NCBI GenBank assembly: GCA_905331475.1
Contig: CAJNYU010000435.1
Span: 422 to 64,421 of the forward strand
Source of the DNA: Rotaria socialis
Taxonomy: Eukaryota > Rotifera > Eurotatoria > Philodinida > Philodinidae
DNA length: 64,000 nucleotides
Direction of reading: 5' to 3'
Below, one piece after another: positions 7,201 through 57,174 of this stretch. The position numbers and the translations under genes were made by a program. Below the pieces are notes generated by a model, which saw nothing but the letters and a program-made list of their open reading frames with translations, did no database searches and had not been told where the DNA came from. The first letter of the stretch is position 1. Every line of letters starts with the position of its first letter.

Positions 7201-10200
7201 TATCATTATTTATTCATCGATCAATTCTCAAAGTAGCTATATTTGTTTATTGTTTAGTTCACACGATAGTTAATAAATTTCATTTCTATTTTAGCAACTT
7301 GGACTTTGGAAAGCAGAGCCAAGTACACTCGATGGTAAGCAGGTTTCGTTCGATGAACGAAAAATACTATTTTTGATATTGCCTTTAAATAGTATCAGCT
7401 TTAATGAAAATAGCGTCATCGTAAGGGTTTCAACAAACGTTGACTTATGATTTTCGAAGTCTACGATTACCTAGGTAGTTTCTCAAAATTTTTGAATCCA
7501 ACATCACCCGTCAATGAGAGTTTAGTTCTTTCGGTTTACCCACACTTTATTACATTCAGCCATTTGAATTATGATTGCCTTAATCGAATCGTGATTGTGA
7601 AAAAATAAACAATTATCTGATCTGTAGTAAAAAAACAGTGTGTATAATTATAGCATGACTCTCATGTTGTCCGGGCTATTACGTTGACAAAATCTTGCAT
7701 CTGGAACTTGTAAGAATGCCATATAACTATGGCAATCAACTTTGAACTTACGAGGAAACATTCCCAAGTGGTGCGCATCGTTTGGTCTCACATTTGGCTC
7801 ATATGAAGGATCCAATGAGACTAGAAAAAGCCTAAAAGATTTCGTGCCCTTAGGCCGTTCCTTCGAAGTTATGACCGTTTTACTGAATTTTCGACCTTGG
7901 TCAAGGGACTTATATAGAAAAATTGAATAAAGGAATTCTGAGCTGAAAATTTTGCCTAATAATACGTCTCATTGGTATTAGAAAATTGTAAAACTTTCAG
8001 GTAAAACTGATGTTTTAAAGATATTACAGATTGAAGAAAACGGTCATGGTCCAAAAATTATCGTAAAATTGACTTTTCTTCAATCTGTAATATTTTTAAA
8101 AGAAAGCATCAGTTTTACCTGAAAGTTTTACAATTTTCTAACACCAACGAGACCTATTATTAGGCAAAATTTTCAGCTCAGAATTCCTTTATTCAATTTT
8201 TCTATATAAGTTCCTTGACCAAGGTCGAAAATTCAGTAAAACGGTCATAACTTCGAAGGAACGGCCTAAGGGCACGAAATCTTTTAGGCTTTTCCTAGTC
8301 TCATTGGATCCTTCATATGAGCCAAATATGAGACCAAACGATGAGCACCACTTGGGAATGCTCCCTCGTTAGAATGAGCATTATATTTCACTAGCGAGAG
8401 CCCATTCATACTGCACGGATCCTTTTTTTCCTGTGAAGTTTCACTTCTGTCCTTTAGCCTTGATTGGGAAATAGACAAAAACCCAGTTCGCATTATATAT
8501 ATATACAGATCGTACAGCCTGATACACCTGTAAACTCATACTCTTGTTGTAGTACTTCTTATAGCCTTATTCCGTTATTTCCTTATCCCTTATATCCTTT
8601 CCAGCCTTATCCATTTATACCATATACCCTTATCCCCTTATACTCTTTTAGCTTTATTCCTTATGCCCATGTAGCCTTAGCCTCTTATCCCCTTTACTCT
8701 TATATCCTTATATCCTTATCCCCTACTCCCTTATTGCCTTATAGCCCTAGAGGGCCCAGGGATGCCTCCATATAATAGCCCTTGATGACCCATGAGTGCC
8801 CACATATATAACAGCCCTTACAACCTTCGCGTTATAGCCTTATCTGACCTTTGACCGTTGACCTTTAACCCGGCACAGACAGACACTAAACATTATATAT
8901 ATAGATTCCTAATGTAAAATTTAGTTTAACGTAAAAGTCAACTGTAGCCTACCTAATACTTTAACAATTCTCATAAGAGTAAGATAATGCATAATCTCTA
9001 ATATAGCACCGCTCAATATGTTTGCACGTCACTGTGCATAGTAATCTTTCAATCAAACAAATTCATAATAACTCTCGATTAGGTTCCGCGGATCAAGATG
9101 CTGCTGTATCTACCGAACAAGAAATTTCTTCGTCACAAACATCGAAAAAGAAAACGTAAATAAATTTAAATAACTCCTTTAAATTTTCAAAAGTTGAACT
9201 AATTTACTTTTTTTTTCTAACAGAAATTTTTATTGTTTCGGACCATTTATTAACTTCTGTCGACGTCTTCACCAAGCATTATTTGTTCACGATGTTTATG
9301 CCTCATTATTTTTCTGTGATTTCATCAATATGATTATTGTCATATGTTTCTATAGTCAATTTGGTGTAAGTAATTTAAAATGATCTTATTTGAAATTTTT
9401 CTGTTTTTTCATATTCATTCGCTTTCAGTTAACAAGAGTTTCAAGGGTAATAAATTTGATTCGGAACCTAAGAAATATTATGAATATCCCTTCACTCGGA
9501 TGGGTGATGCACTTCTCCGTGATCCCTACCCTCCTTCTTTTTTATCTGCTTAAATATATTGAAAATAAATTTATTTAAATATTTAGGAAAGAGCTAGTGG
9601 AAATAATGTTGTACAAACAATAAAAGAAAATAAAGTAATTTGAATTATGATTAATAAATAGTAGTATCTATTTTCACACTTTCAAGGTCCCGGTGGCTTT
9701 TCTTGTGATGCTTTTGATTCAATTTTTATTAATTGTGATCGATCGAGCTCTTTATTTACGTCGAAATGTTCGTGGAAAATTATTTTTTCATTTATTCCAA
9801 GTTATCGGTGTACATATATGGTTATTTTTCGTTTTACCGGGCATAACGCATACGTACGAGAACATTGATTGATTGGTTTTTTTCTAAAGAACATTTTCCG
9901 TTTGGTTTTTATAGGAAATTCCGTGATAATGTTGCTGCTCAATTTTGGTATTTGTTTAAATGCATTTATTTTGGTTATTCATCAACACAAGTACGATTGG
10001 GCTATCCGAAACGTATTGCTGGAAATTTTCTCATGAAAAAATTTAATTATGTCAATCAAATATTATATCGAATGTAAGAATTGCCTATTGAAATTGAATT
10101 TTCGATTGTATTTATCACATTTTTTTAGTTATTTATTAATTCCATTTTTACTGGAGTTACGAACGATTATGGATTGGATTTTTACGGATACAGCACTTGG

Positions 10201-19363: not shown

Positions 19364-19678
19364 CTATCGTGGTACAGTTTTCGTTGTGAGACAATCAAAT
19401 GAATTAGAGAGTATTCTCTTTTTTTCTGTGTGTGCATGTTTTGTAAAAAGAAAATAATACATTTTAATGGTGGTTTTAGTTGTATTGTGCTATCATAGTT
19501 GAATCAATCGGCTGATTTCATTGGCTATGCCGAAAAGAGATACACAGTTCTACAGAAGAGTGCTAGAACTGTTAACTTGCAAAAAGCAAAAGTCGTAGAA
19601 ATCTATTTTGTTTTTCGATTAGCAATCGTGATTCATAATTTGAGGAAAAGGATTCTTCCATGAAGAAACGAATGACTA
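19364..19678. other. Spacer between TBC1D24 and the inverted-repeat cluster
   Basis: This holds the TBC1D24 3' UTR (possible AATAC/AATAAT-type signals near 19455) and AT-rich sequence. No gene was seen. Confidence 0.4.
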
Positions 19679-19898
19679 TCATTTACCACAAATAGAAATC
19701 CACAGACACATCTATACATCATATCCACACTTGTGGTGAATAAAACAAATATGATCCATTCTGGTGATCAAATAGGGATTTTTGATTTAGGGATTTTTCA
19801 ATTTAGGGATTTTTTTTTATACAATATCTTGTTCAAGTCACAACCGAACAAGGTCCCAGTTGGAGGTTCATCAGTACCAGTATACTGGGTACTGGTAN
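19679..19898 (+). mobile_element. Partial copy (left arm only) of the TA-flanked inverted-repeat element
   Basis: This is a close copy of the left arm of the complete element at 20315-21072. It begins TCATTTACCACAAATAG, preceded by TA, and runs through TACTGGGTACTGGTA, where it stops exactly at the single N of the window (19898). The 13 bp before it (AAACGAATGACTA) are also shared with the flank of the complete copy, so the two may come from a local duplication. No right arm is present. The break at an N suggests an assembly join rather than, or in addition to, a biological deletion. Confidence 0.7.
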
Positions 19899-20080
19899 GT
19901 TCCCGGCCAAGAACTGTTCGGGTCGACACAGTTCCCGGGTAGGAACTGTTCGGAGGATCTGGTTCCTGGGCAGGAACTGTTCTGGGGATCTGGGTTCCTG
20001 ACGGAGAACTGTGCATTCACTACAGTTCCTCGAAAAGATTCGGTTCAAAGAACCGAGAGCTGTCGTAGGTCTAATCATTA
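19899..20080. repeat. GC-rich patch of inverted AGGAACTGTTC units
   Basis: After the N, about 180 bp of much higher GC content contain repeated units in both orientations: AAGAACTGTTCGGG, AGGAACTGTTCGGAGG, AGGAACTGTTCTGGGG, GGTTCCTGGG, GGGTTCCTGACGG and CAGTTCCTCG. The composition is unlike both neighbours. It may be the inside of another foldback element, or a misjoined contig end. Confidence 0.55.
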
Positions 20081-20314
20081 CCATGACTCCATGTTTTTAC
20101 TAAGGAATAATTCGAAAGCTTTAGGCGTAAATTGATCAGCCACAGGAGACTTAGATGTCGCAGTTGTACGAGTACTCTGTACATCAGAACGATTCCACGC
20201 AAATACTTATTGTGAATAGATTGTGTCATCAACAGTGACGTATTTAGATGGAGGATTGATCGCCGGGTCAAAAAAACTCGTATTAATGATTTGTAAAGTC
20301 AAAACGAATGACTA

Positions 20315-21072
20315 TCATTTACCACAAATAGAAATCCACAGACACATCTATACATCATATCCACACTTGTGGTGAGTAAAACAAATATGACCCATTCTGG
20401 TGACCAAATAGGAATTTTGATTTAGCGATTTTTCAATTTAGGGATTTTTTTATACAATATCTTGTTCAAGTCACAACCGAACAAGGTCCCTGTTAAGGGT
20501 TCATCAGTACCAGTATACTGGGTACTGGTAACACTGGTGACCAGAATCATCTCTCCGAGTTTCTGATAAGAAGAATTACGTTTCGAAATGATTCTAATGA
20601 ATATTGAATATGTATGATTCTGGTAACCACAATCAGCTCTAAGAGTTTCTGATAAGTAGAATCACGTTTCGAAAGGAGATTCTAGTAACCAGAATCATAC
20701 ATATTTGATATCTATTAGAATCATTTCGAAAAGTAATTTCGCTTATCAGAAATTCTTAGTGCAGAATCTGGTTACCAGAATCATACATATTCAATATTCA
20801 TTAGAATCATTTCGAAAAGTAATTTCGCTTATAAGAAACTCAGAGAGTCGATTTTGGTCACCAGTATTACCAGTATCCAGTATACTGGTACTGATGAACC
20901 CTTAACAGGGACCCTGTTCGGTTGTGGCTTGAACAGCATATAGTATATAAAAAAAAAACCTAAATTGAAAAATCCCTATTTGGTCACCAGAATGGATCAT
21001 ATTTGTTTTATTCACCACAAGTGTGGATATGATGTGTAGATGTGTCTGTGGATTTCTATTTGTGGTAAATGA
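20315..21072. mobile_element. 758-bp terminal-inverted-repeat element flanked by TA
   Basis: The left arm (20315 to about 20540) and the right arm (about 20865 to 21072) are inverted copies, beginning TCATTTACCACAAATAG. TA lies at 20313-20314 and 21073-21074, the target pattern of Tc1/mariner-type elements. The interior contains further inverted repeats built around GAATCATACATATTC and AATCATTTCGAAA with GGTTACCAGAATC variants, so the whole element can fold back on itself. No transposase frame is present, so it is non-autonomous. It ends only about 240 bp upstream of the ubiquitin-like/Hint gene. Confidence 0.8.
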
Positions 21073-21315
21073 TAACCAACCGATGATGACTGCCGAGAAG
21101 TTGGAAGAAAAGAGGCGAATGACAAGTTGATGACGAAATACCTTGGGAGCAAGCGTTTTAGTAAACATTTTTCATTTTGTGTAAATTTCGTTTGCAATTC
21201 ATTTGTTTGCTTTTAGAGTGCCAGTGTCTACATCGCAAAAATCAACGTGTTCTAATTTCAAGATATAAGATAAAAGTTCTGAGTTCAATACATTATAAAG
21301 AAGAATACAATAGTG

Positions 21316-22437
21316 ATGGCCAACATCAACATTTATTTTTCGCACCACGATGGAAATATAGTGGCAGCCACTTTACCTGAGAATTTCAATCGCGAAGATT
21401 TTATTCGGATCTTGTGTGAACGTTTTAGTGATTGGTCCAGCTTTAGATTTATCGTGCGTGGACATAACATAGCCCTAGATGACAATGCACGATTTAATGC
21501 AAGAAAGCATGAAATTACTAATGGGTGCCAAATATATGTGTTCAAACGGATGACAGGCGGTTGCTTTCTTCCTCATACTTTGGTACTAATGGCTGATGGT
21601 ACTTCAAGATCTATAGATGCCATTCGTGTAGGCGACGAGCTGTTGGCATTCACCAACACAGACAAAATTGTTTCGTCAATGGTTCAACAGAAGTTCGTGC
21701 ACACAGTAACAGAATATGTTGAATTATTCGTTGGTGATGAATCAACCACTCCTGTTTGTGTGACTCACGACCATCCGTTTTACGTTGGTAAAGGACAGTT
21801 CGTTCCGTTGAAACATATAAATGGCAAAAACGACACCCTATTTACATGCGAACTCAATGAGGATGGTAAAAGTGTTTTAACAAAGAAGCCCATAATTGGG
21901 CGTAAGAATGTCACGGTCCCATCAGCATGTGTCTACAATCTTAGTACAGATTATCCGAACACGTTTTTCGCCAATGGTATTGCGGTTCACAATAAACTGG
22001 GAGATTTAGGGGCTGCTTTCGTTGATGTAAGTAACACGAGTGGTCTGAAACGCATCCAATGGAGTCATACAGCTCCTAGTTGGCGCATAGCTAAACCAGG
22101 TATTTGTCTGGAGGGTAAATGCAATAACACGAACTGTGTTGCTGTGGGTCGACAGGTGATCATGAATATTGGTTTGCGAAGTTTTGATTACCTCGGCGAT
22201 GTGAATGAGACCACAGCGATGTGTCCATGTTGTTCGAAATATGTCGAGCCAATCACATGTGCATTCAATCGATGTATGTGGCGTTGGTCAGGCATCAAGC
22301 AACCAGCACCAGGAGAACCACCGAGACAAATTTCCGCCGATTGGAAAGACGCTGACAATGCCTACCATTGCTTTGACGAACAAATCAGTGGCACCGTAAT
22401 ATGGCGCAAGCTTGTTCTAGAAGCGAAAGCTCGCTAG
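21316..22437 (+). CDS. Ubiquitin-like domain + Hint (BIL-type autoprocessing) domain + Cys-rich C-terminal domain
   Basis: One intronless frame of 373 residues, from the ATG at 21316. Residues 1-82 have a ubiquitin-like fold pattern (RFIVRGHNIALDD resembles RLIFAGKQLEDG; it ends KRMTGG). The Gly81-Gly82 pair is followed at once by Cys83, the first residue of a Hint domain (83-226) with GGCFLPHT, a TxxH block (T150-H-D-H153) and the terminal FFANGIAVHN, then Lys227. There is no homing-endonuclease insert. Residues 227-373 form a Cys-rich, probably zinc-binding domain (PGICLEGKCNNTNC, CPCC, PITCAFNRC, WRWSGIK). Known biology: Hint/BIL domains cleave or splice themselves, and ciliates have BIL domains fused to ubiquitin-like modules. 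Inference: thioester formation at Cys83 could release the Ubl with a free Gly-Gly end or pass it to a nucleophile; Lys after HN argues against ordinary splicing. The lack of introns, the higher GC and the protist-like architecture suggest horizontal transfer. No partner gene is adjacent. Confidence 0.85.
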   Translation: MANINIYFSHHDGNIVAATLPENFNREDFIRILCERFSDWSSFRFIVRGHNIALDDNARFNARKHEITNGCQIYVFKRMTGGCFLPHTLVLMADGTSRSIDAIRVGDELLAFTNTDKIVSSMVQQKFVHTVTEYVELFVGDESTTPVCVTHDHPFYVGKGQFVPLKHINGKNDTLFTCELNEDGKSVLTKKPIIGRKNVTVPSACVYNLSTDYPNTFFANGIAVHNKLGDLGAAFVDVSNTSGLKRIQWSHTAPSWRIAKPGICLEGKCNNTNCVAVGRQVIMNIGLRSFDYLGDVNETTAMCPCCSKYVEPITCAFNRCMWRWSGIKQPAPGEPPRQISADWKDADNAYHCFDEQISGTVIWRKLVLEAKAR

Positions 22438-23581
22438 TATTTTGGACTTGATTGTTATGATACTGAATGCTCCAATTCGTAATAAAAAATTTTCGTTAGC
22501 TTTCAAATATTTCAATAGAAATAATATAATCTTTTTATTGGAACCTATCACGATCCCAGAAATATTCTTCATAGCGCAACATACCATGAGTATTGGCGTC
22601 ACTAGAGACTACTGAGCATGGATTGTGTGAAAAAATAGATGTAGGCTTAAATTTTTGTGTCTGGCTGCATAGTTCTTTAGTGACCAAAGTATGCGTCGAT
22701 CGTTTTGTCTTCCCGTTGTAACTGTCATGAATAGTCTTACCCAGCACTATCACGAGACATTCGTGAAAAGTGAGAGCAAATGACAGATGGAATGGGTTAA
22801 AAAAAGGAAGCTCTTGAGGGTGTGGGTACACACCCACACCCACACAACCCTCAAGGACAAAGTTCATTAGCGTTGACAACAATATATTAAATGTAATACT
22901 TTATATGAAATATGCTATTCATCAACATAGCACTTATTGCTAGTTTGGGATTTTTTTCTACTGTCTCTCGACTTATGTTGATAATTATGAAGATACATGC
23001 TATGACTATAAGTCAACGATGACTTGAACTTAAAAGAACAAATTTTCTATTGGAATATGATACTTTCTTGATGCTTTCACATCAATAATCTTCGAGTGGA
23101 GAGTATTTGAATTCATAATCATTAGCGTGGATATCCAAGTTCAACCATTGTGACGTACACTTTTACTAGCATACGTTTTTTACAAAGGGAGTTAATTCAT
23201 AAAAAAGACTTTCTCAAGTGTTTTTTTTACCGTTGTTCGCTGCTATATGGATTGTCTAGTTTTGTTTCGATATGCTTTCTCTACGATTATCAAGTGATTT
23301 CAACTATTAGATGACATTAACATCGAAAAAATCATATACTAACAGTTTTCATGATTTTTTTATGCATAATCTAAGTTTATTATAAAGAATTTATTCAAAA
23401 TATGAATTTAACGATAAGGTTATGATTTTTGTTAGATGAGACATATTCAAACTCTATGCTAATGTTGTCGTAATTAGAGTTAGCGAAAACTATTAATTCT
23501 ATGACGGTTTTATAGTAAATGTGATGTCTTTCCCAGTCCATATTGCTGTTTTGTTCTCGTTGTTATTCCATATAATTCTTT
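22438..23581. other. Intergenic region with a telomere-like palindrome
   Basis: Apart from the telomere-like palindrome at 22812-22855, no gene is recognised. A minus-strand open frame of about 85 codons runs from that palindrome down to 22535 (for example PFFNPFHLSFALTF and LRYEEYFWDRDRF). It is somewhat less AT-rich than its surroundings and could be a gene fragment, but it matches no family I know. Confidence 0.4.
22812..22855. repeat. Telomere-like palindrome (GGGTGTGGGT / ACCCACACCCACAC)
   Basis: The sequence reads TTGAGGGTGTGGGT, then CACACCCACACCCACAC, then AACCCTCAA, so short TGTGGG-type stretches meet head to head inside an inverted repeat. TGTGGG is the telomeric unit reported for bdelloid rotifers. 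Here there are only about one unit on one side and two on the other, so chance or a healed break are both possible. Confidence 0.5.
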
Positions 23582-25190: not shown

Positions 25191-25826
25191 TTATGCACTC
25201 GGTTTGACTTCATCAGTTGGTGCTAAAACAAACACCCGCAAGTTGAAGTATGAGTTATCACCTTTTTTCATTAAACTTGCGAATCCTATGTACCATAGTA
25301 TCACTGAAGTAAATATCCCAATGGCACCACCTGCCCGTGTCAAACCGTGGTCCCATAAAAGAAAATAGCTTGCCGTAAATAAAATATACGTTAACATCAG
25401 GAAAAAGAAGAACACAATCATAATTACGTTTGCTCGAATCGATGCAATTAACATAACTAATGTAAATATTGTCCATCCGAGATAGAAAATGCCTAACGCT
25501 TTGTATTGTACAGTTACATCTGTTACGAGACTGTAAAAGCTAAAGGTATTGGCATAAAGAGCACCGAGTCCAAACCAATAACCAGCATAAGAACAGAATA
25601 GAAGAGCATGATAATTGTTTCCAATGCGTAGTTCAAATAAACCAGCCAGAAATTGAATGAGACCACCATAGAAAAGTGCAAGACCCATCGCCATAGAAGG
25701 TGATGTTGAAATAGGAACAGTTGCACCAGCCATATTCATTGAATAAACAAACAATGTTAATGCAAAAGCACAGAAACCGATTGGTGCTGCATTATGTGCT
25801 CGAGGTCCTAATGCCGAATAGCTCAT
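25191..25826 (-). CDS. SatP/GPR1/FUN34/YaaH acetate transporter, copy 1 (N-terminal part altered)
   Basis: This family moves acetate/succinate (bacterial SatP, fungal Ady2/Ato) with protons across the plasma membrane through six helices. The 211-residue frame contains all six hydrophobic segments, the N-terminal signature as NAAPIGF in place of the usual NPAPLG, and YGGLIQFLAGLFEL plus GNNYHALLFCSYAGYW. Compared with copy 2, the first ~25 residues are disrupted. A matching start (MSADRNSLVIYQRFLEFE) lies upstream, near 25885, but about 4 bp are missing before the NAAP motif, so that frame runs into TGA. Translation from the ATG at 25826 would give a shorter protein that keeps all membrane segments. 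It may be functional with a new start, or a young pseudogene. The family's taxonomic spread (bacteria, fungi, protists, not animals in general) points to horizontal acquisition. Confidence 0.88.
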   Translation of the reverse strand: MSYSALGPRAHNAAPIGFCAFALTLFVYSMNMAGATVPISTSPSMAMGLALFYGGLIQFLAGLFELRIGNNYHALLFCSYAGYWFGLGALYANTFSFYSLVTDVTVQYKALGIFYLGWTIFTLVMLIASIRANVIMIVFFFFLMLTYILFTASYFLLWDHGLTRAGGAIGIFTSVILWYIGFASLMKKGDNSYFNLRVFVLAPTDEVKPSA

Positions 25827-25889
25827 TGAATTTCGAATTCAAGAAAACGCTGATATATCACTAGACTGTTTCTGTCAGCAGACATTTTT

Positions 25890-28760: not shown

Positions 28761-29459
28761 TTATGCGCTCGGTTTGACTTCATCAGTTGGTGCTAAAACA
28801 AACACCGGCAAGTCGAAGTATGAGTTATCACCTTTTTTCATTAAACTTGCGAATCCTATGTACCAAAGTATCACTGAAGTAAATATCCCAATGGCTCCAC
28901 CTGCCCGTGTCGTACCTTGGTCCCATAAAAGAAAATAGCTTGCCGTGAATAAAATATACGTTAACATCAGGAAAAAGAAGAATACAATCATAATTACGTT
29001 TGTTCGAATCGATGCAATTAACATAACTAATGTAAATATTGTCCATCCGAGATAGAAAATACCTAATGCTTTGTATTGTACAGTTACATCTGTTACGAGA
29101 CTGTAAAAGCTAAAGGTATTGGCATAAAGAGCACCGAGTCCAAACCAATAACCAGCATAAGAACAGAATAGAAGAGCATGATAATTGTTTCCAATGCGTA
29201 GTTCAAATAAACCAGCCAGAAATTGAATGAGACCACCATAGAAAAGTGCAAGACCCATCGCCATAGAAGGTGAAGTGTTTACAGGCACAGTTGCACCAGC
29301 CATATTCATTGAATAAACAAACAATGTCAAAGCAAAAGCGCAGAAACCGATTGGTGCTGCATTGTAAGGTTGACCTCCTGATGACGGATATTTTTTCATC
29401 AAACTTTCGAATTCAAGAAAACGTTGATATGTTACTTGGCTTTTACTGTCAGCAGCCAT
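28761..29459 (-). CDS. SatP/GPR1/FUN34/YaaH acetate transporter, copy 2 (intact)
   Basis: An intact, intronless 232-residue six-helix protein on the minus strand, starting at the ATG at 29459. The N-terminal cytosolic stretch (MAADSKSQVTYQRFLEFESL) leads into NAAPIGFCAFALTLFVYSMN. The Ala in place of the first Pro of the NPAPLG signature is shared with copy 1. YGGLIQFLAGLFEL and SYAGYWFGLGALYAN follow, and the tail ends APTDEVKPSA. Length is between E. coli SatP (188) and yeast Ady2 (283). Expected role: proton-coupled uptake or export of acetate or related monocarboxylates at the plasma membrane. It lies 3.5 kb from copy 1 in the same orientation, and the coding parts are nearly identical, so this is a tandem duplication. 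It was most likely acquired from bacteria or fungi, before duplication. Confidence 0.92.
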   Translation of the reverse strand: MAADSKSQVTYQRFLEFESLMKKYPSSGGQPYNAAPIGFCAFALTLFVYSMNMAGATVPVNTSPSMAMGLALFYGGLIQFLAGLFELRIGNNYHALLFCSYAGYWFGLGALYANTFSFYSLVTDVTVQYKALGIFYLGWTIFTLVMLIASIRTNVIMIVFFFFLMLTYILFTASYFLLWDQGTTRAGGAIGIFTSVILWYIGFASLMKKGDNSYFDLPVFVLAPTDEVKPSA

Positions 29460-30924
29460 ATTTGAAATTGAGTCTTTTTAAATATAATAATCTAAAGAGA
29501 AAAAGTTAATCCATATAGAATACTTCATTTTTCCCAGTAAATTCTAGCTATTCAATTCGAAAAAGTTTGTCAGGGTAGGTCCATTAGATGTACTATTTCT
29601 AAATTAGCGAGTTACAGTGGTTACCAGTGTATTTAGCTGACAGAGTTGCCGACTCAATACGTTTTAAAAGCGGAAGCTTTGCTCGTTCAGTTTTCATCAT
29701 AGCGTAAACTTGTATTGTTGGCAACTCTCGGGCTTCTAAGCGTTTGAAACTCGTTCCCTATTCATAGCCATTGCTTTTTTTTCTTCAATATATTGAGAAC
29801 AGCATGAAAACAAAGGAATTCTATTTAGAAATTTGTTTTTTGATGTGTACTTATGATTAGAATTGATTGCTCATTGACATGAAGCAATTGAGAGAGATGG
29901 GGGTCTTGAGAATGAAATTTCATATTAGTCGATATGGTTTCTAATTGAAAAGGAAGGAGATTGATAAAGCGGCAAACTTCGTCTTATAGCTAACACTTAC
30001 CATTTCCTTCTAGAATATCGATGAACTCTACCAATGAATTCAATTTTATTGCTGAGATAAGACAATGCATCTCTCAAAAAATACAAATGCGTCTGTGTTA
30101 TTTTTTGTCATTTTAAACACAGTAATTCCCTTCGATTATACATTTTTAGTCTCCATCAAAAACTTCCTTCATCCTCAAGTGTATTTTGAAATATATATAT
30201 GACGATTCCGTTTCTCATTTAGAATAAAAATAAAGTATTATTAATATTACCAAAGATTTTTTACATAAAGTTTTCATCTATAAAAATCTTACTCCCACTA
30301 AACGATGATTAGTCTCTAATTCGAGTCAGTGGATTCTATCTAGTCATCTAAGGTGTGTGAGAAAAAAATCTCAAACTTCATAAAGACTTTGTCACATCCT
30401 ACCTGTATTTAAAATAAACTTAAGAGAAACTTCTCGATTTAAAACGAATAAAAAATATCGATTTTATACTCGACCTTAAAGAGTGTAGTTTTTCTGTCAA
30501 GTATTCTTGTAAGGGAAATTAAAATTTTGCACAATAACTTATTCTCTTTTTCACGACGAAGCTGCTGTGACGCCTTATATACTTTCTGCATAAAGTCATT
30601 TTGTTGAACTAGAAGTATCCTTAGTAGCTCTGTGTTTCGTTGTTCACAATCTATAAAAAAGAAATTACGCTGTTTAATTTCTTTTTGTATAAGTGGATAT
30701 ATTTAGTTCTCAAATAAATGCAATGGTTGCCTAGTGCAGCACAAACAAATAGCATGACTAAAAATAACAACCTCGAAACATTATTTCAAATTGTCATTTT
30801 GTTTTAGTGATGAAATCAACATAATAGACTTTGTGGAAAAGAATAAGTATACATCGTACAACCTTATGAAACAAATAAATACTAGAGAAACGAATAGAAT
30901 AACAAGGTCTTTATTAACAAGTCA
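29460..30924. other. Intergenic region upstream of transporter copy 2
   Basis: AT-rich with no recognisable gene or repeat. The part next to 29460 should contain the promoter of the transporter. A 66-codon frame at 30791-30991 runs into repeat A and is probably not a gene. Confidence 0.4.
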
Positions 30925-34600: not shown

Positions 34601-34955
34601 CATTCAAAGGGTACCATAAAACTATTGATCATTGTAGGTTCATGCAATGAGTAAAAATATTGTAGCAGCGGAAAACAGAATGATCTCAACTATCATACGT
34701 AACCAATTAAATACAGAAGGCATGCATTTGGAAGTCGAAATTAATAACTGTTCAATAATTACCGATATGAAAACTAATCATTATTGAAGTAAATTCCGAC
34801 AAATTTTACGCTCTGTCCATGTAGAAAATCTTTTGTATGATTAGATTGAGCTGAATAGTCTACTTGCAAATAATAGCTATGACAAAGATTTATTCTTATT
34901 ATTAAGGGTTGCAATAACTATGAGCGTATCCGGAAAAGAAGATGATTATTGGCTA
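31691..34955. other. 3.3-kb region without a recognised gene
   Basis: The region is mostly AT-rich. A patch at about 33740-33960 is clearly richer in GC and has two overlapping open frames; one continues across the patch with many Asp and Ser codons (SGDGDVASDDDYASF...). It could be a gene fragment or an exon, but no family is recognised. Nothing else was identified. Confidence 0.4.
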
Positions 34956-35262
34956 CCCTGAAAAAAATAAAGGAGGTTTACAGAACCCTCCGAAAAGGTT
35001 CTGTAGATTTTCAAAATGCTCCAAATGTGTTCAAAGTCTCAAAAGAAGGATAAAAATTTTGAAAGAACCTTTTTTTGGTGTCTTTAAAGGAAAAAAAGGT
35101 TCTGTAAGAGATGGTTCTGCACTTGGGTAAAACGCAGAACCTTCAAAAGGTTCTGTCAAAATTTTTATCCTTCTTTTGAGACTTTGAACACATTTGGAGC
35201 ATTTTGAAAATCTACAGAACCTTTTCGGAGGGTTCTGTAAACCTCCTTTATTTTTTTCAGAG
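34956..35262. mobile_element. 307-bp foldback MITE flanked by TA
   Basis: Inverted arms of about 110 bp (34956-35065 and 35153-35262) begin CCCTGAAAAAAATAAAGG and CTCTGAAAAAAATAAAGG (right end, reverse complement). They contain GGTTTACAGAACCCTCCG and GATTTTCAAAATGCTCC. TA lies directly before (34954-34955) and after (35263-35264), as for Tc1/mariner-type insertions. The centre contains further GGTTCTG/CAGAACC units. No protein is encoded. Confidence 0.85.
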
Positions 35263-35264
35263 TA

Positions 35265-35813
35265 GTTCAAATGAAAACGCTTTCGAACTCAAAAGTGCAC
35301 TTTGTTAAAGAATTATTTCAGTATGCATAGGTGAACATTAACCTACATTTACTCATCGCTGATCATATCCACCAACGTCCTCAACCACTGTTTAATAGGA
35401 TTCATTCGAAACGATATCCAAGTCATATTCATGTTATCATAAAAACATACTATGAGTGTACTCTCAAATACTGTACCTGAAAGTCTTGCGTTCGATATCT
35501 AATATGAAGAAAAATAATTTTATGATTCTCTTAAATATAAATTGGGCCCATTGTTTTGTATCAGATTCGTAGTACAAAATTTCCTTCGAGAGAACTCTTT
35601 TTCCAAACTGCAGTAGGAATTCAAGATACTTCGCTGCTACATTTAGCGACTATCAACAAGCAGAAATAAGCATTTTCGACTGCAAAACCTTCTCGCTCAT
35701 GTCTAACAACCTCTCTATATAGATATAAGAATTGGAGAATTAAATTATGTAACATGTCAATATGAACTCCTCGTATTTTAAGCAGTTCCATGATCCTTTA
35801 TTTGATTTCTATT
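35265..35813. other. Spacer, no gene seen
   Basis: AT-rich sequence between the TA-flanked MITE and the decayed minus-strand frame. No feature was recognised. Confidence 0.35.
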
Positions 35814-54528: not shown

Positions 54529-54762
54529 GTTCAATTAAGGTGCCTACGCATCAAGTGTGAATGAAACGCAGTAATGTGTAAGTTTCTATAACTCTCATAC
54601 ATTGAATCATAAGTACCAAGCCAGATATATCTCTCAGTAGTTAGATTCCTATCTTTTCATTGAGAACAAAAAGTAAGCTGCAGCTGCTTTGAAACACAAG
54701 GTAGCTCGTCGGCTGACTATTTCTCATGATTCCATATTAGATTTAAAGAGGAACTAATAGAT

Positions 54763-57174
54763 ATGAAAGCTTACACTAATATGATCAAGCTTTGGGGTGT
54801 TTTATTACTTTTCATATCAAGAGTCACTGCCGGAAAATTTCCACCCCTCGACTTACATATAGGTACGGGTGGTGAATTTTTAGGTGCAGCAAATCTACCA
54901 CTGGGCGCACAGACTCTCTATGGTACAGTTCGTCTCGGTCCCGGTACGAGTAATTCAGAAGACACCCCAGCAGTGATCAATCGTTACGCCGGCTATCATT
55001 ATTATGATAATTACATAAATATGTTTTCACATACACATGTCCTTGGCGCTGGTATTGTAGGTTATGGTAATGTTGGTATCTTTCCAGTTCAAGTCAATAA
55101 TGATAATGATTTACAACATGTCATAGCAAATAAACATGGCTATTGCAGTACATTTGAACATAAGAGCGAGATAGTCGAACCCGGTTATTATCAAGTCTAT
55201 CTTGACACACATAAAACCAAGGTCGAGCTAACAGCAACAGAACAAGTCGGTATTCATCGATATTCATTTGATGATTTTAATGAAAAACATCGTGTCGTAT
55301 TGATTGACAGTAGTTATGCACTACCACCCTATGGTTGTCAACAGAGTCATGTCAATATTAATTCAACAAGAAATGACATTACTGGATCCATTTTCTTTAA
55401 AGGATTTCTTTCCAGATCGTTTGGTGGAGTGACCACATATTTTGTAATTATATTTACGAATTGGACAGATTTCGGTGTTTGGACAGAAGGTCGTCTATTA
55501 CAGGGTGAAACAACAGCTGATGGATGTTCATCAGGTGCCTATGTTAAACTACCTGCCAATCAACAACAAGTCACAATTTATGTTGGTATTAGTTTTGTAT
55601 CAATTGAACAAGCACGTGACAACTTAGAGATACAGACAAAACTAGAATCATTTGATTCAATTCGTGATTGGATATAACAGAAATGGCTCGATGAAATGTC
55701 CCGATTCGAAGTATGTTTTAATGATTATAATAAAATAAAGTTTTCGAATTAGAAGAAATACATTGCCGATCAACAATGGCTAACGTAGTAGTATATAAAA
55801 TAGTATTTTCTTTTTCACTAGGTACAGGCTGATTGGAATATTGAATCTGAAATTAAATTTAATGCAGCACTTGCTCATTCAATGTCAAGTCCGACCATTT
55901 GGGACGAATCAAATGGTGTTTATCTAGGATGATTTGACGGTAAAATTCATACAAAACCCGATTATATGGATCATATCTTCACAGATTTATCTATATGGGA
56001 TATCTTCCGAACTCAAGTACCTTTTCTTATATTACACGATGCAAAACGTGCCAATGATATTGCCCATTCTATTATGCTTATAGTTGAACAAGGTGGTTAT
56101 TTACCTAAATGGCCTCTTGCTAATGGACATACGAATTGTATGATTGGTTCTCATGCTGATATTATACTGAGTGATTTAATTATGAAACGTGAACATGATT
56201 CTCATCTTAATATGACTCAAGTGCTCGAAGCATTACGAATCGTAGCTAATACCGAGCAAATACATGATAGTCGATTTGATCCACCTACATACATCAAATA
56301 TGGATATGTACCTTTTGATATGGATGAATATTCGGCATCACTTACGTTGAGTTACGCTTACGGTGACTGGGCTACCGGTAATGTTATGTATGCTGCGGGT
56401 CTCATAGACGAAGTACAAGAATATTATAGTCGATCTCAATGGTTTGAACATATATTTGATAATAATACAAAATTCTTCTGCCCAAGAAACAGTACTGGTG
56501 ACATTCTTTGCCCAGCAACCGAAATTGAACATTTGATTCCTTTCGATTATCGTTATACAGAAGGTGATGCATGGCACTATCGTTTCTTTGTACCACATAA
56601 TACATCACGTTTGGTCGATCTATTTGGTGGTGCAAAATATTTTACTGAAGAACTTGATACATTTTTTGTTCGTAGTCGAGACTGGCCGACAATAACAATA
56701 CCCAATCCATATTATTGGGCAGGAAATGAACATAATTTATTTTCTGTTTGGCAATTTCACTATGCAAATCGATCGGATCTCACTCAGCTACATGCACGTT
56801 GGCTGCTCGATAATGTTTACACAGTGAAACGTGATGGGATACCGGGCAATGATGATTATGGTACAATGTCAACATGGTACATTTTTACTAGTTTAGGTTT
56901 CTATCCATTATCTGGCTCATCGACATATCTAATCGGTAGTCCTGCATTTGATCGTATTACAATTCGCCGCAATAACGGTCAATGCATACTTACAATAATC
57001 GTTCACGATAACGCACAGAAAAATACATATGTTGAACGTGTTCTACTCAATGGTGAAATCCTATCAACATATCCATTTATAGATCATATCAATCAGCTTC
57101 GATGTTCTACTGATTCATCAGCTGTACAAGTAGATTTTTTCATGTCATCTACACCAACATTCAATTATCATTGA
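54763..57174 (+). pseudogene. Glycoside hydrolase family 92 (exo-alpha-mannosidase), two in-frame stops
   Basis: GH92 enzymes are calcium-dependent exo-acting alpha-mannosidases that trim mannose glycans. Two exons, 54763-55710 and 55822-57174, would give about 766 codons, the usual family length. A signal peptide (WGVLLLFISRVTAG) starts the product. The N-terminal domain shows IGTGGEFLGAANLPLGAQ and FSHTHVLGAGI. The catalytic domain shows YLPKWPLANGHTNCMIG, EGDAWHYRFFVPHN (Glu of the general acid region) and GIPGNDDYGTMSTWYIF (Asp pair). Two in-frame stops interrupt it: TAA at 55675-55677 (after IRDWI, followed by QKWLDEM in frame) and TGA at 55930-55932 (YLG, then FDGKIH). The rest is very well conserved, so loss is recent, or the stops are allele-specific or sequencing errors. 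GH92 is mainly bacterial and fungal, so this is probably an acquired gene that gained one intron. Confidence 0.85.

Follow-up and report, generated by a model that had tools for sequence, protein, structure and literature searches.

Hint domains joined to ubiquitin-like domains (Ubls) are so far known only from ciliates. In the BUBL1 polyubiquitin locus of Tetrahymena, the Hint domain BIL2 (structures 6tmm and 6y75) lies between Ubl domains, and it is reported to conjugate the upstream Ubl, independently of ATP, to a lysine of the next Ubl or of other proteins (PMC8616854). An RGG motif precedes BIL2, and the BIL gives an activated Ubl without consuming energy (PMC9200820). The A-type BILs, by comparison, cleave at their HN motif and do not ligate (PMC7765530). 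The gene described here lies in a 64-kb stretch of DNA from the rotifer Rotaria socialis, called the window below. It encodes a probable SUMO-like Ubl, a Hint domain and a Cys-rich module in one frame. A first-pass annotation had pointed to the ciliate BIL-Ubl system as its nearest precedent, and this comparison holds: the best structural match of the Hint is BIL2, with Z 22.1, and the layout of Ubl, GG and Hint is the same. A literature search found no published work on rotifer Hint proteins.

The open reading frame starts at an ATG at 21316, flanked by G at both -3 and +4 and with an in-frame stop 5' of it, and ends at TAG (22435-22437). At the local base composition, 373 stop-free codons have a probability of 7e-11. 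The frame runs unbroken across all three domains, with no stop, frameshift or loss of a catalytic residue. Its coordinates and the residues Gly81-Gly82-Cys83 and His225-Asn226, with Lys227 next, are as originally annotated. The features are as follows.

21316..22437, + strand: whole open reading frame of the SUMO-like Ubl, Hint and Cys-rich protein; 373 amino acids plus TAG stop, single intronless frame
21316..21561, + strand: probable SUMO-like ubiquitin-like domain, residues 1-82, ending Thr80-Gly81-Gly82; matched by the SUMO profile in hhalign, other Ubls without match
21556..21561, + strand: Gly81-Gly82, predicted Ubl C terminus and N-extein positions -2/-1; aligned to the GG of SUMO
21562..21993, + strand: Hint (BIL-type autoprocessing) domain, residues 83-226; PT-HINT, AlphaFold and BIL2 (6y75) match
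21562..21564, + strand: Cys83, predicted nucleophile of the N-S acyl shift; at least 90% conserved in 44 sequences
21763..21774, + strand: block B, Thr150-His-Asp-His153 (TxxH); Thr150 invariant, His153 at least 90% conserved
21988..21993, + strand: His225-Asn226, predicted site of Asn cyclization; Asn226 invariant, His225 at least 90% conserved, TIGR01443 above cut-off
21994..21996, + strand: Lys227, the +1 residue, not a Cys/Ser/Thr nucleophile; Lys also at +1 in at least 12 of 117 Hint relatives
21994..22434, + strand: Cys-rich C-terminal module, residues 227-373, nine Cys and two His; an orphan in the libraries searched, possibly zinc binding
22481..22486, + strand: AATAAA, candidate polyadenylation signal, 44 nt past the TAG stop

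Residues 83-226 are certainly a Hint domain. They match the Pfam family PT-HINT (PF07591) with an E value of 1.1e-8 and 35.8 bits, against a curated cut-off of 27.7, and they score above the cut-off of TIGR01443, the intein C-terminal region. By sequence, the closest solved relatives are the BIL of Clostridium thermocellum (2lwy) and 6tmm/6y75. For residues 81-220, an AlphaFold model built with 43 relatives reached block means of 91-98 in pLDDT. Its top structure match was 6y75 (rmsd 1.3 over 139 aligned residues), effectively tied with 6tmm (Z 21.7) and 2lwy (Z 21.5), and further matches to other BILs and inteins lay at Z 20-22. An alignment of 44 sequences shows Cys83, Thr150, His153, His225 and Asn226 to be either invariant or conserved in 90% or more. 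The PT-HINT match, the pLDDT, mostly above 90, and the retained residues together confirm the annotated Hint fold and its intact catalytic center. Structure prediction, which the annotation had proposed as a check on residues 1-226, was thus confident for the Hint; for the Ubl, modeled alone, confidence was low (pLDDT 50). Of the BIL2 zinc ligands, H48 is matched by His129 of the window protein and H125 is replaced by Asn208. In a Hint tree (88 rows, 136 columns) the window sequence sat on a long branch (1.91) with no supported placement, and AU tests neither rejected nor supported a joint clade with BIL2 (p 0.21) or with the actinobacterial toxin-Hints (p 0.44). The window holds one Ubl and one Hint, with no second copy in its 64 kb.

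Three other Hint classes were considered and do not fit. The Vint profile scored 16.1 bits, against a cut-off of 27, and there is no VWA domain. The match to PF01079 (E 4.9e-7 for the full protein) covers only profile positions 10-93 of 213, the domain ends in HN and there is no sign of a sterol-recognition region, so the Hedgehog Hog class does not apply. A canonical intein would have Cys, Ser or Thr as its +1 residue, which here is Lys227. The same residue bears on what the domain might do. The TIGR01443 motif and the intein-like fold could suggest canonical protein splicing, with the Hint excised and the Ubl and Cys-rich parts ligated. We regard this as very improbable, given the Lys at +1, the absence of a homing endonuclease from the window Hint and the failure to find, in the libraries searched, a Hint-less homologue that would represent an uninterrupted host protein.

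The nature of the N-terminal domain was addressed with SUMO and other Ubl query sequences entered by hand. Residues 1-82 alone matched no Pfam family, and phmmer against PDB sequences gave a weak alignment to SUMO-2 (residues 3-82, E 1.6), as would be seen if this were not a Ubl at all and the likeness to SUMO were a product of chance. Profile comparison argues against that explanation. Aligned by hhalign with a profile of six SUMOs, the domain gave P 4e-5 over 75 columns at 27% identity, with TGG on TGG at the end. The score of 29.0 exceeded the maximum of 24.4 in 887 shuffles with GG fixed, and shuffle-based Z values for the SUMO match were 7-9. The HMMER score was less decisive than hhalign, being equaled by 19 of 10,000 GG-fixed shuffles. 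Among nine Ubl queries, the SUMO pair alone matched (Z 7.5 and 7.2), whereas FUBI reached 2.6 and the rest stayed below 1; ubiquitin and NEDD8 gave no hhalign alignment to residues 1-82 and did no better than shuffles. A single-sequence AlphaFold model of the Ubl alone has a pLDDT of 50, which also leaves room for a chance match; its order of elements, beta-beta-alpha-beta-beta-beta, is that of the beta-grasp, and SUMO chains account for the majority of its best, though weak, fold matches (best SUMO Z 3.6). Foldseek with this model gave E values above 0.4. Together these data make a SUMO-like domain probable and a chance match improbable. The annotation had described a ubiquitin-like domain ending in GG and fused to the Hint Cys. 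The fused, GG-ending Ubl stands, but the ubiquitin family does not, since ubiquitin, NEDD8, UFM1, URM1 and ISG15 all fail while the SUMO profile matches.

We then asked how common the junction letters are in Hints. Of 148 relatives collected on their Hint sequence, irrespective of GG, 14 have GG directly before the Hint Cys. Among the 117 in which an HN was recognized, Lys comes next in at least 12; this count is a lower bound, as a simple rule served to locate the HN. The pattern GG-CF...MxDG is matched by at least 120 viral stretches. Among the matches listed, 76 of 101 distinct GG-Hint junctions are preceded by Gly-rich linkers, and none of the 101 has a SUMO or ubiquitin score above noise before the GG. 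Likewise, no Ubl was detectable before the Hint among relatives with the GG or HN-Lys letters. As GG is also common in Hints without a Ubl, a modifier cannot be deduced from the junction alone, and on these base rates we rejected the idea that GG-Cys or HN-Lys marks a ubiquitin junction. GG before the Hint Cys, read earlier as the place where ubiquitin is matured, is therefore no evidence by itself of such a site. The Lys after HN still speaks against canonical transfer, as the annotation held, but it is not special, being ordinary for A-type BILs. Such junction letters are commonplace among Hints of this class, and the unusual feature here is the likeness to SUMO of the sequence that closes with the GG.

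The viral sequences are of interest in themselves. Environmental viral proteins very often carry a Hint after a poly-Gly linker (GG-CF), followed by HN-Lys (viral contigs L149-L268), and some contigs, for example L151, L153 and L261, have tandem pairs of GG-CF Hints. This cassette is apparently abundant and little noted.

The frequency of these letters raises the possibility that an in-frame Hint cassette, from GG-Cys to HN-Lys and of a type common in proteins of bacteria and viruses, came to sit between the Ubl and the Cys-rich domain and cleaves off the latter, as polymorphic toxins do. The Ubl would then be a targeting or folding domain and not a released modifier. Such an arrangement fits several facts: many Hints of this class have GG in front and Lys behind, the best Pfam family match is PT-HINT, HINT autopeptidases directly precede C-terminal toxin domains (PMC3482391), and no function is assigned to the Cys-rich module. 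Nevertheless, the SUMO alignment extends through the terminal TGG, so that the GG agrees equally well with the natural terminus of the Ubl; there is no indication of a toxin; and the Hint is not clearly in the actinobacterial toxin-Hint clade, although the AU test does not reject that position. Overall, we consider the cassette explanation rather unlikely.

The Cys-rich module (residues 227-373) had no relative in Pfam, NCBIfam, PHROGs, PDB sequences, phages or plasmids, nor in viral contigs searched with four query forms. It contains nine Cys and two His, and its lysines are Lys227 and eight more. From the Cys pattern we would guess that it binds zinc. Two sets of candidate matches were dismissed as chance. 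The single match from a bacterial phylum represented by 395 genomes (G022; E 5.6e-4, calculated for one genome) has three internal stops and overlaps a bacterial frame in another frame; four viral contigs share GICLEGxCxN in a 36-residue frame.

The genomic context is that of an animal. The window is AT-rich and gene-dense, and the neighboring genes encode a Piezo channel, a TBC protein, a giant SPRY-HECT protein, a G-patch protein, a syndapin/PACSIN (E 2.9e-38 to a solved syndapin) and a GPCPD1-like protein (CBM20-C2-GDPD). These animal-type neighbors indicate that the window is animal DNA, and the animal context already annotated is upheld. The codon usage of the gene is atypical for the window: GC3 is 0.39, compared with 0.17-0.32 in nine neighbors, and the codon score is near zero, compared with 0.10-0.26 in the other genes. 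The gene may therefore be recent, foreign or little used. Codon use is homogeneous over all three domains, consistent with transfer as one unit or with low expression. These values, the lack of an intron and a repeat-rich inverted-repeat element immediately 5' would suit a decayed or silent gene taken up from a protist or microbe, with a product that never underwent processing or has ceased to, and with catalytic residues still in place. However, the frame has no stop, frameshift or catalytic loss, TxxH and HN are kept and there is a poly(A) signal, while low expression can also explain the codon bias. A silent foreign gene is therefore, in our judgment, unlikely.

Several other features of the window deserve mention. 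The 5' element (19666-21074) consists of nested direct and inverted repeats, with arms at 19677-19798/20953-21074 and 20445-20677/20721-20953, and is foldback or MITE-like. About 0.4 kb 3' of the gene, a short hairpin (22813-22855) carries TGTGGG telomere-like repeats. It includes an interstitial TGTGGG repeat, TGTGGGTGTGGG, at 22833-22844 on the minus strand, where none is expected by chance. TGTGGG is the telomere repeat of bdelloids, and together with the AT-richness and gene density of the window it suggests a bdelloid rotifer. Near-perfect inverted repeats with short spacers at 7747-8372 (270 nt, 96%) and 34953-35265 (121 nt, 98%) are probably foldback elements. Two genes on the minus strand (25191-25838 and 28761-29477) belong to the GPR1/FUN34/YaaH acetate transporter family, which is typical of fungi and bacteria. 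A 300-nt stretch is 96% identical between them, and they were possibly acquired and then duplicated. A glycoside hydrolase family 92 gene (54730-57174), with N-terminal and catalytic domains, lies amid the animal genes and was possibly acquired horizontally. Both families appear to be of kinds often transferred from microbes.

The reading we favor, with a probability of roughly 0.55, is that the gene encodes a cytosolic or nuclear precursor in which the protein's own Hint, and not a protease, matures a SUMO-like modifier. The annotation had inferred that the tag is released or attached independently of E1, E2 and a protease; we likewise infer all of the catalytic steps, by analogy with BIL2 and the A-type BILs. 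Cys83, assisted by Thr150 and His153, would take the Gly82 carbonyl as a thioester in an N-S acyl shift. Water would then release a free SUMO-like-GG acid, whereas an amine would give an amide, or an isopeptide if it belonged to a lysine; Lys227 or one of the eight other lysines of the Cys-rich part could supply it. Cyclization of Asn226 would free the Cys-rich domain with Lys227 at its N terminus. Because the +1 residue is Lys and not Cys, Ser or Thr, classical splicing is unlikely, and the expected outcome would be cleavage at both ends with some aminolysis, as in A-type BILs and ciliate BIL2.

Self-processing is supported by the retained catalytic residues in a confidently predicted fold, whose best matches are BIL2 of Tetrahymena BUBL1 and the Clostridium BIL; by a SUMO alignment that runs end to end and places GG exactly at the Hint boundary; and by an intact three-domain frame with an upstream stop and a poly(A) signal. 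Against it stand the frequency of GG in non-Ubl Hints, the distance of the SUMO match (27%), the pLDDT of 50 for the Ubl model, the single BIL2 zinc His with a counterpart and the atypical codon usage. A stronger version of this model, in which the SUMO-like protein held by the Hint as a thioester is passed on to lysines, either in the Cys-rich module or in partner proteins, would be a single-gene, ATP-free route bypassing SENP, E1 and E2; we consider it a doubtful though conceivable extension.

If the domain is active, the Ubl-Hint principle of ciliates would reach both animals and, among modifiers, the SUMO branch, and maturation of Ubls without a protease, and perhaps without E1 or E2, would have evolved or been transferred more than once. 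This protein is small, its gene has no intron, and it lends itself to direct tests in E. coli; protein chemistry might also draw on it as a natural source of Ubl thioesters.

In layout, the known system closest to the protein is the BUBL locus of ciliates. As in BUBL loci, a GG-ending Ubl is joined directly to the first residue of the BIL (Cys1); the C-terminal motif FFANG..HN is common to BIL2 and the window Hint; and, like BIL2, for which a lysine amine is reported, it would need no standard splicing nucleophile. Unlike BUBL loci, it has one Ubl and one Hint and no array, its Ubl is SUMO-like where theirs are ubiquitin-like, it carries an orphan Cys-rich module and it lies among animal genes. 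It also differs from BIL2 in having Asn208 for the zinc His125 and no supported grouping in the tree. Judged from its sequence, the protein would work like a BUBL unit yet is not classed as one, because it lacks an array, its Ubl resembles SUMO, only one of the two zinc ligands is present and the tree lacks support. With the SUMO family it shares a whole-length profile match and the TGG end, but identity is 27% and its tail is a Hint, whereas SUMO precursors end in a short peptide that SENP/Ulp cuts off. Hedgehog Hog, the known animal Hint, and Vint provide further examples of the Hint fold in eukaryotes, but both are described without the C-terminal HN in which the window Hint ends. Like A-type BILs and PT-HINT domains, it has Cys1, TxxH, an HN end, no endonuclease and no obligatory Cys, Ser or Thr at +1 (here Lys227), and GG before and Lys after are frequent in that group. 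The prokaryotic members of the group occur in phage, adhesin-like or polymorphic-toxin proteins, with no detectable Ubl before those fetched. By these sequence traits, the window Hint is a new member of the BIL/PT-HINT Hints, set in what is probably a new architecture.
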